Part shown: positions 277 to 30,091 of the stretch, piece after piece
Position numbering within the stretch: the first letter of the stretch is position 1
How the letters are laid out: each line of letters starts with the position of its first letter
Virus record (IMG/VR): IMGVR_UViG_3300033553_000804
Location: 1 to 34,216 of that record
Length of the DNA: 34,216 nt
Reading direction: 5' to 3' (one strand)
Source of the DNA: a virus
The notes under the pieces: generated by a model
Databases searched by the model: none
What the model saw: only the letters and a program-made list of their open reading frames with translations
Told to the model about the DNA's origin: nothing
Translations under genes and position numbers: made by a program

Positions 277-2313
277 ATGGAATATTACAAAAATCAACTT
301 TGTGTAGAAGCCGGTTGGCTTATTAAGGAAAGCATAATGACCCAAACGCAGTATGACAACCTCAACCGGAGAAAACAAATTAACGTGGTTCGCCGCGCCT
401 GCCTCAACACTCCCGCCCTGGTTGCATACGACAGCATTCCCGACAGATTCAAAAAAAATATTATCGAAAAAATTGGAAGAGATCCTTACAAGGCGGTTAT
501 TCAAAGTAGCCTTAAGGATTTTATTGTGCCCGACGAAAAGTCCCGCAAATATTTCAGGGGTTATATAATGGACAATGGCGAACACCTGCCAGAACCGGCA
601 CAGGAAGAGTACCGGGCCAATGCCGAAATTTTGAACGCCTTGCACCATATAATAATTGACAGGGCAGCCGGGCGCAAAGTTATTAATGGCAAACTTAAAG
701 GCATTTGGCCGCGTTTGGCTAATGCCGTTTTAAACCTCGATAAAAAAGAATTTAAACACACCCTGCCTCCGAACTACCGCCGCCTGCAGGACCGTTACAA
801 TCGTTTTATTTCAACCGACAATTCACGCTTCGAGCGTATAGGTTACGAAAGCCTGATTCACGGTAACTGGTGCAATAAGAACTCTGAGAAGATTAACGAC
901 GAAGCAAAGGTGTGGATGCTTTCGCGGTGGACCAGCATGGTTGAACGCATTGCCACCACTGAGCAGTTGTTTGACGAATACAACCGCCTTGCCGAAAGCC
1001 AGGAATGGAAGCAGCTGAAAAGCCCCGACACGGTGCACCATTTCTTATACCAGGAGGACATTAAACCTTTGTGGTGGGCTGCACGCTACGGCGAACAGAA
1101 ATTCAAAGAGAAGTTCGTTTACCAGCTCAAAACCATTTTACCAACCATGCGCGACAGCCTGTGGTATTCGGATGGAACGAAGCTTAACTACTTCTACCAA
1201 ACGCGCGATGCACAGGGCCGCTTCCAGATGAAAACCACATCGGTATATGAGGTGATGGATGTTTACTCTGAAACAATGTTGGGCTATCACATATCGGACA
1301 CTGAAGATTATGTTGCTCAGTATTCGGCTTTCAGAATGGCAATGCAGGTTAGCCAGCATAAGCCTTACCAGGTGAGTTACGACAACCAGGGCGGACACAA
1401 GAAATTGGAAGCCGGTGACTTCCTTACAAAGCTTTCTCATTTATCGATCCGAACCAAACCATATAATGGTAAATCGAAAACAATTGAAAGCGCCTTCGGT
1501 CGGTTCCAGATGCAGATACTTAAAAAGGACTGGTTTTTTACAGGCCAAAACATTCAGACTAAACGCGACGAAAGCAAAGCCAACCTCGAATTCATAATGG
1601 CGAATAAGAACAACCTGCCAACATTGGAAGAGGTTCACGCCAAATACATTCAGCGCCGCAACGAATGGAACAATGCCCCACACCCGAAAACCGGGAAAGC
1701 TCGCATTGAAATGTACCGCGAAAGCAGCAACCCAAAAACTGCCAAGGTTGAACTGATGGACATGGTGGATCTGTTCTGGGTATTGCGCGACAAACCTGTT
1801 ACAACCAGCGCTTATGGAATTACTTTCCAGGAGAAAGGCGTTAGCTACAATTACGATGTAACCCTGCCAAACGGCATGCCAGATATTAAGTGGCTTGCTA
1901 AAAACATCGATAAAAAATTCAGGATAAAATTCGATCCACAGGATTTCTCAATGATTTACCTGTACGATGAAACTCCGCAAGGCCTTCGCTTTGTAACCGA
2001 AGCCAATGAAAAGGTTGCAATTCACAGGGGCAAACAAGAGCAGGAACCGGGCGAAATGGAACGTTGGGCAGCTATTGACAAAGCCAATGCCGAATTGCGC
2101 GAAGAAATGCGCGAAAGCCTGATGGAGATACAGCGGCAGCACAATCAATTGCCTGAGCAAAACGGTTTGGTAACTCCGGGCATTAAAGGCATCAACCGGA
2201 AACGGAAACAAACAGCCGACAACTTTGGCCGCCTGCAGAAAGCAATGAGCAACGTGGTAGTGGCTTCTGACGAAGACGACGAACAGGACGACAACTTGTA
2301 TAATCTAATGTAG
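277..2313 (+). CDS. Mu-type DDE transposase (MuA-like)
   Basis: A 678-residue transposase that would cut and join the phage ends to target DNA for integration and replicative transposition. A candidate DDE triad of the RNase H fold is visible: D299 in WYSDGTKLNYF, D369 in VSYDNQGG and E404 in KTIESAFGRF. The spacing (70 and 35 residues) suits a retroviral-integrase-like core, and the length is close to that of MuA (663). The N-terminal ~250 residues would hold DNA-binding domains. The C-terminal part (about 430-640) would be the beta-barrel and the region contacting the ATPase. The start at 277 has the AACAGC-ATG leader seen before other genes here; ATG 337 is an in-frame alternative. The MuB-like gene follows after 22 nt. 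Confidence 0.92.
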   Translation: MEYYKNQLCVEAGWLIKESIMTQTQYDNLNRRKQINVVRRACLNTPALVAYDSIPDRFKKNIIEKIGRDPYKAVIQSSLKDFIVPDEKSRKYFRGYIMDNGEHLPEPAQEEYRANAEILNALHHIIIDRAAGRKVINGKLKGIWPRLANAVLNLDKKEFKHTLPPNYRRLQDRYNRFISTDNSRFERIGYESLIHGNWCNKNSEKINDEAKVWMLSRWTSMVERIATTEQLFDEYNRLAESQEWKQLKSPDTVHHFLYQEDIKPLWWAARYGEQKFKEKFVYQLKTILPTMRDSLWYSDGTKLNYFYQTRDAQGRFQMKTTSVYEVMDVYSETMLGYHISDTEDYVAQYSAFRMAMQVSQHKPYQVSYDNQGGHKKLEAGDFLTKLSHLSIRTKPYNGKSKTIESAFGRFQMQILKKDWFFTGQNIQTKRDESKANLEFIMANKNNLPTLEEVHAKYIQRRNEWNNAPHPKTGKARIEMYRESSNPKTAKVELMDMVDLFWVLRDKPVTTSAYGITFQEKGVSYNYDVTLPNGMPDIKWLAKNIDKKFRIKFDPQDFSMIYLYDETPQGLRFVTEANEKVAIHRGKQEQEPGEMERWAAIDKANAELREEMRESLMEIQRQHNQLPEQNGLVTPGIKGINRKRKQTADNFGRLQKAMSNVVVASDEDDEQDDNLYNLM

Positions 2314-2335: not shown

Positions 2336-3202
2336 ATGAAAGATTTCGAAAAACAACAAATTGCAGAATCACTGGCACGCTATTGCCAGCGATACGACAG
2401 CAAAAACAAGGCTGCAAATTCTATTAAAGGCGTTAGCTCCGCAACAGTCAGCCAGATATTGAACAACAAATGGGAGCTTATCAGTGACGAAATGTGGCGC
2501 AATGTAGCCTCACAAGTTGGGTACACCGGCCAAACGTGGCAGGTTGCCGAAACGCGCGATTTCCGCCTGCTTACACAGGTATTTGAGTATTCAAAATCAA
2601 TTGCAAAGGTTTGCTTTATAACTGGTGCTACCGGATCGGGCAAAACCGAAACAATTAAGCAGTTTGCAGCAAGCAACAAGCGCGTGTATGTGATTAAATG
2701 CAACGATTTCTGGAACCGCAAAACGTTCCTCAGCGAATTGCTTCAGGCCATGGGCATTGATGCAGGTGGTTACACCATGTACGAAATGATGGGGCTTATT
2801 ATTCACCACATCAAACAACAGCAAAACCCCATTATTTTCCTTGATGAAGCCGATAAACTGAACGACCAGCTATTTTATTTCTTCATAACCCTATACAACA
2901 ACCTTGAAGACCACTGCTCAATTATAATGATTGCCACCGAATTTCTTAAAAAACGCATGGAACGCGGCATCAGGTTGGGTAAGAAAGGGTACCCTGAAAT
3001 TTATTCGCGCGGTGGCCGCAAGTTCATCCAGCTGAAAGGTGTAGGCTCATCCGATGTTCGCGCGGTGTGCATTGCTAATGGTGTAACCGATTCAAAAACC
3101 ATAAAAGAGATTTACGAAGATTCGGAAAATGACCTTCGCAGAGTGAAAGCAAAAGTAATGGCTCATAAAGAGTTTGTACTGAAAGCCGAAAACCTGAATT
3201 AG
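2336..3202 (+). CDS. MuB-like AAA+ ATPase, transposition target selector
   Basis: A 288-residue protein with an N-terminal helix-turn-helix (about residues 10-50, containing SSATVSQILNN) and a C-terminal AAA+ domain. Walker A is GATGSGKT at about 97-104, and Walker B is IIFLDEAD at about 166-173 with D170/E171. This is the domain order of MuB, which binds target DNA as ATP-dependent filaments and delivers it to the transposase. It lies directly behind the transposase, and its start has the AACAGC-ATG leader. Family assignment rests on motifs plus position. Confidence 0.9.
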   Translation: MKDFEKQQIAESLARYCQRYDSKNKAANSIKGVSSATVSQILNNKWELISDEMWRNVASQVGYTGQTWQVAETRDFRLLTQVFEYSKSIAKVCFITGATGSGKTETIKQFAASNKRVYVIKCNDFWNRKTFLSELLQAMGIDAGGYTMYEMMGLIIHHIKQQQNPIIFLDEADKLNDQLFYFFITLYNNLEDHCSIIMIATEFLKKRMERGIRLGKKGYPEIYSRGGRKFIQLKGVGSSDVRAVCIANGVTDSKTIKEIYEDSENDLRRVKAKVMAHKEFVLKAENLN

Positions 3203-27003: not shown

Positions 27004-27276
27004 ATGGAACAATTACAAGACTTAACAGTTGCTGAAAATGTAAGCAGCGCCTTCAATGCAAACGACCGGGATGTTGCGATAAAAGTAACTACTTCGGAAA
27101 GCTCAACTATAGTAATTCATCGCTCGATTGACAATACCGACTTCAGGGTTATTCCTGATTTAAGCTGGACAATTGACGGCATTGATGAAATTAATTTGAC
27201 CGACTGCAAAAAGGGTCAATTCTACAAAGTTGTGGCAACAGCTGGTGTAATGACTGCAGCAAAAGTTTTGGCATAA
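27004..27276 (+). CDS. small beta-rich tail protein
   Basis: A 90-residue protein, probably a small beta-sandwich (DRDVAIKVTTSESSTIVIHR; IDEINLTDCKKGQFYKVVAT). It precedes the DGR target gene and overlaps it by one base (TAATG). Its position and composition suggest a tail or baseplate component or a chaperone for the next protein. No family is recognised. Confidence 0.6.
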   Translation: MEQLQDLTVAENVSSAFNANDRDVAIKVTTSESSTIVIHRSIDNTDFRVIPDLSWTIDGIDEINLTDCKKGQFYKVVATAGVMTAAKVLA

Positions 27277-28523
27277 TGGAGTCAATTGCACATAGCGTTG
27301 CGAAAAGCATAAGCGATAGACTTGCGTCATTGTTGAACTCTTTTAACACACGGGTTTTTTGGGATAATACCGAAACTGACCCGGTTGTTGACAAGGATAC
27401 TGAAATGCTCAATTACTTTAAGCAGATTAAGAAGGTTGGACTTAATTCAGCGGGGGAGGAAATACACACATTTGCAACGTGGGATAGTCCGATAACGACA
27501 GGGGCAACTGATGGGAGTTTGGGGCAGGTAATGGGTAAATTCCCTAAGCTATACGTTAAGTTTGAGTATGACGTAAATGGATATATTACTGCATATACCT
27601 TACGCTCTACCCCGGCAACCGGATTTCAATTGCATGAATGCTTCTGGGATTATGATTTGATGGACGGGAGTAAGGGGCGTGACGAAGTGTATATAGGGAG
27701 CTATGAAGGGTATAGTGTTGGCGGTAAATTAACTTCAATCTCAGGCGTTGTTTCTACCGGAAGTTTGACGATGGTACAATTCAGGGATTTAGCAAAAGCA
27801 ACATTCACAGACTGGAATGGACATCAATTAGACTTTTACACGCAGGAACTGATTCAGCTTTTGTTCTATTCATATTATGGAAACAGAGACAGTCAGACAG
27901 TACTGCCCGGTTACACGGAAAGGGCTGCATATAATGCCGCAGATTTCAGAAACAATGGGCGCACAGACATTCTGACAACTGTAAACGGATATATAAATGC
28001 ACAAACCGGAGCAGGAGAATTGGATGCTGATTTAGCGGCAGGCTGGCAGACAGGCGGCAGAGGTACTGCAATTGCTAATCGTTTTTTGTTTATAGAGAAT
28101 ATTTTTGGAGCAAAATGGAAGTTTCTGGATGGTTGCAGTTTTGACGGACGGGTTGGGGCAAAGAAAACAGCATGGGTTCATCCAGACCCTCGTGTGTTCA
28201 CCTCCGTTGATGCTGATGTTTTAACTAACTACATTGATTTAAACATTGATGTATTAACAGCAGATACAACAAGTTGGATAGGTGGGGTAGGACGTGGGTT
28301 TATACCGCTTGCAGCATTAGGAGCCGATTCAGCAAAGTATTACTGTGATTTATTTTACAGTTACCTAAGCGATGCAGCTAACCGAAACTATTTGCGCTCC
28401 GTTCTCGCGGGTGGCTTTCTGAGCTCTGGATCGAATGCGGGTCTCGCGGCGCGTGATTCGTACTATTCGCTTGCGCTTGCGAACTCGATCAGCGGTTCTC
28501 GGCTCTGCTATAAAAAATTGTAA
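27276..28523 (+). CDS. DGR-diversified tail/receptor-type protein (C-type lectin-like end)
   Basis: A 415-residue protein. The N-terminus (about 1-90) would attach it to the virion. The C-terminal ~200 residues (from about FLFIENIFGAKWKFLDG to the end) look like the C-type-lectin-like fold of DGR targets: YLRSVLAGG, then AGLAAR, and GSRLC near the end. Residues 377, 381, 383, 384, 386, 394, 396, 397, 401, 404-406 and 409 are changed relative to the downstream template. It likely binds a host surface ligand whose specificity the retroelement could alter. Position among tail genes supports receptor binding; the exact tail part is not known. Confidence 0.8.
   Translation: MESIAHSVAKSISDRLASLLNSFNTRVFWDNTETDPVVDKDTEMLNYFKQIKKVGLNSAGEEIHTFATWDSPITTGATDGSLGQVMGKFPKLYVKFEYDVNGYITAYTLRSTPATGFQLHECFWDYDLMDGSKGRDEVYIGSYEGYSVGGKLTSISGVVSTGSLTMVQFRDLAKATFTDWNGHQLDFYTQELIQLLFYSYYGNRDSQTVLPGYTERAAYNAADFRNNGRTDILTTVNGYINAQTGAGELDADLAAGWQTGGRGTAIANRFLFIENIFGAKWKFLDGCSFDGRVGAKKTAWVHPDPRVFTSVDADVLTNYIDLNIDVLTADTTSWIGGVGRGFIPLAALGADSAKYYCDLFYSYLSDAANRNYLRSVLAGGFLSSGSNAGLAARDSYYSLALANSISGSRLCYKKL
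28391..28505 (+). repeat. DGR variable repeat (VR)
   Basis: The last variable stretch of the 415-residue gene. Aligned without gaps to 28558-28672 (offset 167), 97 of 115 bases are identical. All 18 differences fall on template adenines (29 in all), and none on the other 86 positions. Similarity stops sharply at 28391 on the left. On the right the next bases show the first non-adenine differences (28506, 28510), as expected for the initiation region of homing. Confidence 0.93.
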
Positions 28524-28822
28524 TGAACAATAAAAGGTTTATATCGGCAAGCGTTGTTTTGCGCTCCGTTCACGCGGGTGGCAATCTGAACAATGGAACG
28601 AATGCGGGTCTCGCAGCGCGTAATTCGAACAATTCGCTTGCGAATGCGAACACGAACAACGGTTCTCAGCTACGCTGTATTTATAGGAGGGCTGACATAA
28701 ACCTTGCCTCTTGGCAAAACATAGAAACATTATCAAACGGTATTAGTAGCACTGATGCGAAAATTCCAAACGATACAGCAGATATGAAAAGACTTGGAAT
28801 ATTACACATTCAATTAGCATGA
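28523..28822 (+). CDS. ORF containing the DGR template
   Basis: A 99-residue frame that contains the template repeat in the same phase as in the target gene, so it encodes an Asn-rich version (NSNNSLANANTNNGSQLRC). It starts on the stop of the target gene (TAATG) and ends on the start of the next gene (ATGA), the coupling seen in real phage genes. The part after the template (SWQNIETLSNGISSTDAKIP onward) is of unknown origin. It could be translated as a short protein, or be open by chance because the template is in-frame. Confidence 0.45.
   Translation: MNNKRFISASVVLRSVHAGGNLNNGTNAGLAARNSNNSLANANTNNGSQLRCIYRRADINLASWQNIETLSNGISSTDAKIPNDTADMKRLGILHIQLA
28558..28672 (+). repeat. DGR template repeat (TR)
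   Basis: It carries 11 AAC/AAT codons in the target phase, 9 of them changed in the VR, the codon choice typical of templates because adenine mutation of AAY can give many residues without stops. It lies 52 bp downstream of the end of the VR, on the same strand, the common place for a DGR template. Confidence 0.92.
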
Positions 28823-29475
28823 AAAGAGGAACAATGACACCAACGGGCGCAATGCCTTCTGCAACTGTTACAGAGAATCTTCGACATCAGGGTTGTCCTG
28901 TTCAGGTGAGATGGGATTTCAAAGAGGAACAGCAGGAACATGAAGGGGAAACGCTAAGTGTTTGGACTTTCAATTATGACAACATGGTTGAAAAGTGGAA
29001 TCATTTCAGGGTTTACGCAAAAGAAGAAACCTGCTGGTTGAATAACGGTAAGGTTTACGTTTCGGAAATTGACAACAACAAGAACAAACCACCACAGGCG
29101 GGATGGAAAGAAATAGTATTTGAAGGGATTACAAAGGCAGAGGAACAGGAAGCTAAGACGTGGGTTCCTGTGACCGGGGCGCATGATGTGTATAAGTTAG
29201 GCGAAGTGGTTGAACACAATGGTAAAAAGTATGTGAGCAATCATCCTACTAATAGTTGGGAGCCGGGAACGCTTACTTACTTGAATTTGTGGATTGAGAT
29301 TGGAGCAACTGAAAGCAATGAAATATTGCCGTGGGTACAACCTACGGGGGCGCATGACAGCTATAAAGTGGGAGACCAGGTTACTTACAATGGATTCACA
29401 TGGGAATGCACAGCAGGGGATGGAAGCGGAAGTAATTCGTGGGCTCCGGGGGTGTATGGGTGGACAAAAATTTAG
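28819..29475 (+). CDS. protein with carbohydrate-binding (CBM5/12-like) repeats
   Basis: A 218-residue protein with two clear chitin-binding-type repeats: residues about 115-162 (WVPVTGAHDVYKLGEVVEHN; SWEPGTLTYLNLWIEI) and 172-218 (WVQPTGAHDSYKVGDQVTYN; SWAPGVYGWTKI). A third, degenerate copy lies at about 72-99 (WLNNGKVYVSEIDNNKNKPP). Such repeats occur at the ends of phage tail proteins and bind glycans. It overlaps the template ORF by 4 nt and sits where a DGR reverse transcriptase gene would often be. Confidence 0.8.
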   Translation: MKRGTMTPTGAMPSATVTENLRHQGCPVQVRWDFKEEQQEHEGETLSVWTFNYDNMVEKWNHFRVYAKEETCWLNNGKVYVSEIDNNKNKPPQAGWKEIVFEGITKAEEQEAKTWVPVTGAHDVYKLGEVVEHNGKKYVSNHPTNSWEPGTLTYLNLWIEIGATESNEILPWVQPTGAHDSYKVGDQVTYNGFTWECTAGDGSGSNSWAPGVYGWTKI

Positions 29476-29551
29476 TTCGCCTTTGGGGGGAAGTTGATAC
29501 ATTTTAAAATTTAGGAAAAAGGTGTTTAAGGAGGTTAAAGTTATTAAGGAA

Positions 29552-30091
29552 ATGGAAAATAAAAGTAAAAAATCGGCGATGTTGGGGGCAGTTATTTGGC
29601 TTTCGTATATTGTAATTATGTGGAAAAAATATGGAGGCGTTAAAAGTTCGGTTTCAGCACTGTTTAATTACCTTAAGGGGAGCTATACAAAAAGAAGATT
29701 GGTCATAGCAGTTATTTATGTTGCGGCGGCTTTCTTCCTTGCCAGGGCAATCTGGTTGCTCGATGTTTCTTTTATCAGTAATATTTTCGGAATAGTTGGG
29801 ACTGCAGGTTTGGCCGGGGCAGGGATAATACCAGACAGCCGCAATAAAGCAGGCAGTTACAGCAAGCTTAAAGATAAGGCTCATATAATTAGCACGCTTA
29901 TAGCAATAGTTTGTTCAATGATTTACATTGTAATGAGCAGCATCATACTTCAGCGGTATTGGTTTCTTCTAATTCCTGCTGTTACAATTGCAGCTACTGT
30001 TTACATGCTTCGTGAAAAGGTGAAAAACCATACTACCTGGATTGAATTAGCTATGTTTTTTGCAGTGTTGATGTTTATCAATTTAATATAA
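29552..30091 (+). CDS. polytopic membrane protein, unknown
   Basis: A 179-residue protein with about five or six membrane helices: AMLGAVIWLSYIVIMW, LVIAVIYVAAAFFLARAIWL, IFGIVGTAGLAGAGII, IISTLIAIVCSMIYIVMSSI, FLLIPAVTIAATVYML and IELAMFFAVLMFINLI. ATG 29552 is chosen; GTG 29522 is an alternative. It is encoded between host-recognition genes and the last tail gene, 3 nt before the latter. It is not like known holins in length. Superinfection exclusion is a possibility. Confidence 0.65.
   Translation: MENKSKKSAMLGAVIWLSYIVIMWKKYGGVKSSVSALFNYLKGSYTKRRLVIAVIYVAAAFFLARAIWLLDVSFISNIFGIVGTAGLAGAGIIPDSRNKAGSYSKLKDKAHIISTLIAIVCSMIYIVMSSIILQRYWFLLIPAVTIAATVYMLREKVKNHTTWIELAMFFAVLMFINLI

Follow-up and report, generated by a model that had tools for sequence, protein, structure and literature searches.

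A Mu-like prophage within a type III-A cas10 gene

The stretch of DNA analyzed here (the window, 34,216 nucleotides) corresponds to C64:26331-60546 of a 5.76-Mb bacterial genome assembled in 67 contigs, and it covers most of a Mu-like prophage. The complete prophage is 37,041 bp long and lies within the type III-A gene cas10/csm1. Joining the two flanks restores an 837-aa cas10 open reading frame, and a 5-bp duplication (TATGT) is present on both flanks. Since both prophage ends are thereby known, no part of the prophage is missing from the assembly. It encodes a MuA-like transposase (277..2313, plus strand), which is 40% identical to that of Hankyphage p00, and a MuB-like ATPase (2336..3202, plus strand). 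The minus strand carries the terminase-portal block, and the plus strand carries the capsid and tail genes. Genes for MuA and MuB, a divergent terminase-portal block and a short target-site duplication are all features of Hankyphage-like Mu-type phages.

Several observations concern the surroundings of the insertion and the prophage cargo. The halves of cas10/csm1 are found at L002:14568-15113 and L001:3593-5578, with csm3 and further csm genes following, and the lysogen therefore lacks Cas10. A CRISPR-like array of about 20 units (L001:10563-12050) has unusually degenerate repeats, many of which are unlike the first ones. The last prophage gene (L001:2001-3491) encodes a 496-aa protein with short NNTxxGDIxxLP-type repeats and no family match. 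Between tail genes, positions 29522-30091 of the window encode a small membrane protein with a weak DUF998 match, which is possibly a moron gene.

A tail gene that ends in a mutated repeat

Within the tail region, an intact open reading frame (27276..28523, plus strand) encodes a 415-aa protein of the phage tail family phrog_5302, annotated as tail protein (E 4.6e-31). This gene is the target of a diversity-generating retroelement (DGR) and carries the VR at its 3' end (28391..28505, plus strand). The template repeat, TR, lies downstream (28558..28672, plus strand), and the two repeats align over 115 bp with zero gaps. Substitutions affect 18 of the 29 TR adenines (10 to T, 5 to G and 3 to C) and 0 of the 86 other positions. 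The probability that 18 random mismatches would all land on the 29 adenines is approximately 7e-14. Nine of the 11 AAY codons are changed, yielding F, S, S, D, Y, Y, L, I and S. The coordinates of the two repeats, the counts of replaced adenines and unchanged positions, and the recounted codons reproduce those of an earlier note made from the letters of the window.

When the loci collected to that point were scanned for adenine bias, the signal was confined to DGR loci. The VR/TR locus is single-copy in the host genome. A scan of the genome contigs with a two-row VR/TR alignment, for which poor patterns had been chosen, gave no match, and the sole match of a second scan by TR/VR pattern (L016) was rejected as a chance locus.

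The target protein contributes to a profile of 24 DGR targets (itself and 23 others) that end in GSRLC. Its closest homolog by protein sequence is 77% identical and is known from a single IMG/VR locus (L004), whose contig stops 17 bases past the stop codon of the target gene. There the target gene seems to lead into the start of a CBM5/12-like gene with no TR between, although the same sequence could be the start of a reverse transcriptase (RT). A lectin-like C-terminal segment, as proposed in the earlier note, is plausible. The VR sits at the 3' end of a tail-family gene, and the best PDB match of an AlphaFold model of the target is the DGR variable protein TaqVP, at a nonsignificant E of 0.06. 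The model itself is too poor for fold assignment (mean pLDDT 50, falling to near 30 at the C-terminus). Searches by sequence or profile gave no PDB match for the target, and no Pfam domain common to the DGR targets was found.

Boundary signature and structured RNA

The 3' ends of the two repeats carry the IMH/IMH* difference that is also found in 54 VR/TR pairs of relatives. The IMH-like end of the VR is TCTCGGCTCTGCTATA (28497..28512, plus strand), and its IMH* partner at the TR is TCTCAGCTACGCTGTA (28664-28679, plus strand). At the first signature site the change is A to G in 54 of 54 pairs; at the second, the VR has T or C in all 54, with A opposite in the TR in 49. The final two mismatches of the window pair, A to G at TR 28668 and A to C at TR 28672, fall within this fixed signature, and so approximately 16 of the 18 mismatches would be mutagenic. 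Immediately past the repeat, C/T and G/A mismatches (CGCTGTA at the TR, TGCTATA at the VR) also fit a difference between IMH* and IMH. A hairpin with a 5-bp stem after the VR (ATTGT-AATGA-ACAAT) was set aside as chance-level, since 31% of shuffled sequences have one too.

Downstream of the TR lies an intact RT-17 RNA (RF03020; 28700..28785, plus strand) that scores 45.0 bits (E 2e-7) against a curated gathering cut-off of 40.4 and ends at the RT start codon, which is its expected place. In ten intact relatives the same RNA scores 42.6-51.2 bits in the same location between TR and RT. A 99-aa open reading frame (28523..28822, plus strand) reads across the TR, the RNA and the RT remnant described below, and it was rejected as a gene because of this overlap.

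A scar in place of the reverse transcriptase

Intact relatives share the order target with VR, TR, a conserved stretch of 80-100 bases (the RT-17 RNA), RT and an accessory gene encoding about 100 aa, with a small extra gene between RT and accessory gene in some of them. Their RTs begin MKR(V/L/I)GN(L)Y, for example MKRLGNLYDKI or MKRVGNLYDRI. In the window, an ATG at 28784 is followed by AAAAGACTTGGA, giving MKRLG, the usual start of the related RTs, and these five codons (28784..28798, plus strand) are the sole remnant of a DGR-type RT in the cassette. From 28797 to 28817 (plus strand), another frame reads EYYTFN-stop. The accessory proteins of relatives terminate in [YF]xFx-stop in 25 of 29 cases, and the chance of such an accessory-like end at this position was 6e-4 in a shuffle test. 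Apart from this end, the accessory gene is absent and has no match elsewhere in the prophage. A tail-region gene with a CBM5/12 domain follows (28819..29475, plus strand). For this gene no relatives were found in IMG/VR; a CBM5/12 gene likewise follows the accessory gene in one intact relative (L044), which has the order target with VR, TR, RNA, RT, accessory gene and CBM5/12 gene.

The succession of MKRLG, accessory-gene end and next tail gene indicates that the RT and the accessory gene were deleted and that the TR, VR and RNA were kept intact. This is interpreted as the loss of about 1.2 kb through a deletion that fused RT codon 5-6 to the final accessory-gene codons, with a junction, as seen in the assembly alone, at about 28797. 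Because no sister phage with an RT at the same target was found, the deletion is deduced from more distant relatives. The sequence ATGAAAAGA, a 9-base repeat with one copy at the RT start and another at the start of the next gene, was also weighed as a recombination site but discarded, as both copies persist.

No reverse transcriptase elsewhere in the prophage or host genome

An RT-like open reading frame was found neither in the window nor in the prophage ends, and nothing in the prophage matched an RT or accessory protein above noise. The whole 5.76-Mb host genome gave no match to RVT_1 (PF00078), and none, at E values up to 10, to the phage RT family phrog_1423 or to the Hankyphage RT. When the DGR RT of L040, which comes from the host's family, was used as the query, the host genome also gave no match at E 0.01, whereas the same query and threshold detected an RT in 68 of the family's 140 genomes, which serves as the positive control for the negative result. 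The 67 contigs amount to a completeness of 95.5%, and so an RT might still lie on a missing piece.

Since neither the prophage nor the genome yielded an RT, the VR should be fixed in this lysogen unless an RT arrives in trans. Thus, the reading of the earlier note divides. A VR/TR pair of DGR type does occur at a phage tail gene, but the statement that the phage probably varies its host recognition is not supported in the present tense, given that the RT and accessory gene are gone from the cassette and that the RT is not found in the prophage or host genome.

Other cassettes that have lost the reverse transcriptase

Two published DGR surveys (Benler et al. 2018, PMC6199706; PMC8144416) start from the RT gene, and RT-less cassettes are therefore invisible to them. 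Cassettes were instead sought through the RNA, by using two RNA patterns that returned 56 and 45 loci from IMG/VR, or 101 in total without removal of duplicates. Six of the 101 phage loci either lack the RT or have an internal deletion in it. Remnants are MKRIGK-stop in L203, ATGAAAAG in L248 and about 11 RT codons in L187, where the TR/VR pair is putative. In L205 and L260 the RNA is fused to the end of the accessory gene, with the cut inside the RNA region. In L178, RT codons 1-48 are fused to codons ~227-315, and the catalytic part is lost. The contigs of the six loci (up to 90 kb, several of them fragments) contain no match to RVT_1. A further locus, L276, has lost the RT and retained the accessory gene.

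Two genomes of the host's family add to this set. One (G022) retains RT codons 1-47 and the other (G048) the RT end alone, and both have a clean TR/VR pair and no other RT match. Including the window, nine RT-deleted cassettes are known, seven with a verified TR/VR pair, and four of the nine (the window, L203, L248 and L187) are cut directly after the RNA and the RT start codon. The TR/VR pairs in the RT-less loci show essentially no drift. Judged from these sequences, loss of the RT from a cassette with intact TR and VR is not rare, having occurred in 6 of 101 phage loci and in three genomes of one family. Among 393 genomes of the host's order, five carry an RT-17 RNA at E 1e-4, and four of these RNAs exceed the Rfam cut-off. 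In all four genomes besides that of the host the RT directly follows the RNA, although the fourth of these RNAs scores below the Rfam cut-off.

Some of the collected loci have peculiarities of their own. L187, a 90-kb IMG/VR contig in which TAG is apparently read as an amino acid, has an RT-17-like RNA, an RT start remnant and a TR-like sequence near which no VR was found. At L177:2208-3201, and also in L197, the RT frame shifts midway in two contigs that have near-identical matches, through a frameshift, an insertion or a sequencing error. A Mu-like phage whose MuA is 67% identical carries a DGR outside the tail region (L032:188-1073), in which one TR serves the VRs of two small proteins of about 140-150 aa; L203 and L275 have small paired targets of a similar kind. 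A second DGR cassette that lacks an RT of its own is seen in a Mu-like phage (L028:10642-10942 and L031:7512-7812); the VR of this cassette differs between two contigs nearly solely at template adenines, which shows that it is served in trans.

A probably decommissioned element and its alternatives

The explanation that best accommodates these findings, and which is very probably correct, is that the cassette is a decommissioned DGR, once active, that lost its RT and accessory gene by deletion and is now frozen in this lysogen. The paired repeats, the RT-17 RNA, the scar and the failure to find an RT can be read from the sequence itself; past mutagenesis would follow from established DGR biology. 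That the deletion is recent, that the element is now inactive and that it might be rescued in trans are further inferences. As a strict DGR, the cassette lacks the RT and accessory gene, and RT-deleted DGR is its best label. The ancestral prophage would have had a standard Bacteroidota phage DGR, with target and VR, TR, RT-17 RNA, RT, an accessory gene (about 100 aa) and the next tail gene. Its RT would have reverse-transcribed the TR RNA, making errors at adenines, and the resulting cDNA would have replaced the VR to create the present tail-tip variant. A deletion from RT codon 5-6 to the last accessory codons would then have spared the target, VR, TR and RNA up to the RT start. Rewriting of the VR would resume only if a compatible RT, perhaps together with the accessory protein, arrived via another phage.

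An appreciably less likely explanation is that the cassette is a nonautonomous DGR maintained for use in trans, such that the RT of a coresident or coinfecting phage serves its TR, RNA and VR. Service of this kind occurs within one phage genome. In one related phage (G538/G540), a second cassette of TR, VR and RNA, which has no RT of its own, is separated by about 2.7 kb from the cassette that bears the RT. The two versions differ at 14 positions in 900 bp, all of them in the second VR and 12 at positions of TR adenines, while the TR and flanks are identical, and so the RT evidently serves the separate cassette in trans. In addition, functions of the BPP-1 DGR can be supplied in trans (PMC3240598), and in Pseudogulbenkiania a distal DGR target is reported, in one instance, to adjoin a strongly mutated RT (PMC3521204). 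The recurrent cut just past the RNA and the RT start codon, and the nearly drift-free pairs of the RT-less loci, also favor maintenance of a functional unit. However, the host genome holds no RT to serve the window cassette, and no helper phage is known for this prophage. The cuts inside the RNA region of L205 and L260, along with the retained accessory gene of L276, indicate that no single unit is preserved. Furthermore, the 0 of 86 differences at non-adenine positions would mean that the RT was lost recently or that the cassette was used in trans until recently, but such a count sets a bound on age of about 3.5% divergence and no tighter one.

Two further explanations appear improbable. In the first, the RT resides elsewhere in the genome, on an unassembled part. 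The assembly is incomplete, and distal DGR targets are known (PMC3521204), but a scar occupies the expected RT site, the prophage is complete and continuous, and no RT of any class is present in the 5.76 Mb. The second, if anything slightly more improbable still, is that misjoining dropped the RT from the contig. The TR and VR are repeats that can mislead assemblers, and the junction is known from one assembly. Against this, the junction lies outside the VR, the TR and any long repeats, running from RT codon 5-6 to the accessory end; the RT is missing from the entire assembly; and unrelated assemblies have junctions that are similar without being the same. Tandem duplication of a gene end with later drift or selection, and no DGR, is refuted by the extreme adenine bias, the RT-17 RNA, the IMH signature and the RT-bearing relatives with the same architecture, in agreement with the earlier note, and nothing was found in its favor.

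Implications and comparison with known systems

Beyond the decommissioned element itself, it may be ventured, though with considerable doubt, that RT-less cassettes form a recurring class in Bacteroidota phages, in which the target, TR and RT-17 RNA persist, the RT is repeatedly excised so that the tail variant is locked, and the RT of another phage can reactivate the system. If so, such nonautonomous cassettes would resemble SINE-type elements that borrow an enzyme. RT-less cassettes bear on how long hypervariation persists, on whether RT loss is a way for phages to fix a favorable receptor-binding variant and on whether DGRs can be shared between phages.

The prophage is a distant relative of Hankyphage (Bacteroides phage p00, BK010646; PMC6199706), which is likewise a Mu-like phage of Bacteroidota; its genes lie in a similar order, with a VR in a tail gene and a TR downstream. 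Unlike the window, Hankyphage has an RT 208 bp after the TR, with an accessory-like domain fused to it, and the RNA after its TR is RT-3 (RF03068) rather than RT-17. The prototype DGR, that of Bordetella phage BPP-1, has the same VR/TR logic, adenine mutagenesis and IMH/IMH*, but it has a different accessory protein (Avd) and an RT. The Pseudogulbenkiania locus resembles the window in that a VR-bearing target lies beside a lost RT; there the RT is mutated and another remains in the genome, whereas here the RT is deleted and none was found in the genome. Further close parallels are the RT-17-type DGRs of Bacteroidota phages (such as L040, L077 and L044). These retain the RT and accessory gene that the window has lost, but they share with it the TR, the RT-17 RNA, the register of the RT start and the IMH signature. 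Their targets end in GSRLC(F/Y), as does that of the window, and in L044 even the CBM5/12 gene beyond the accessory gene is shared.
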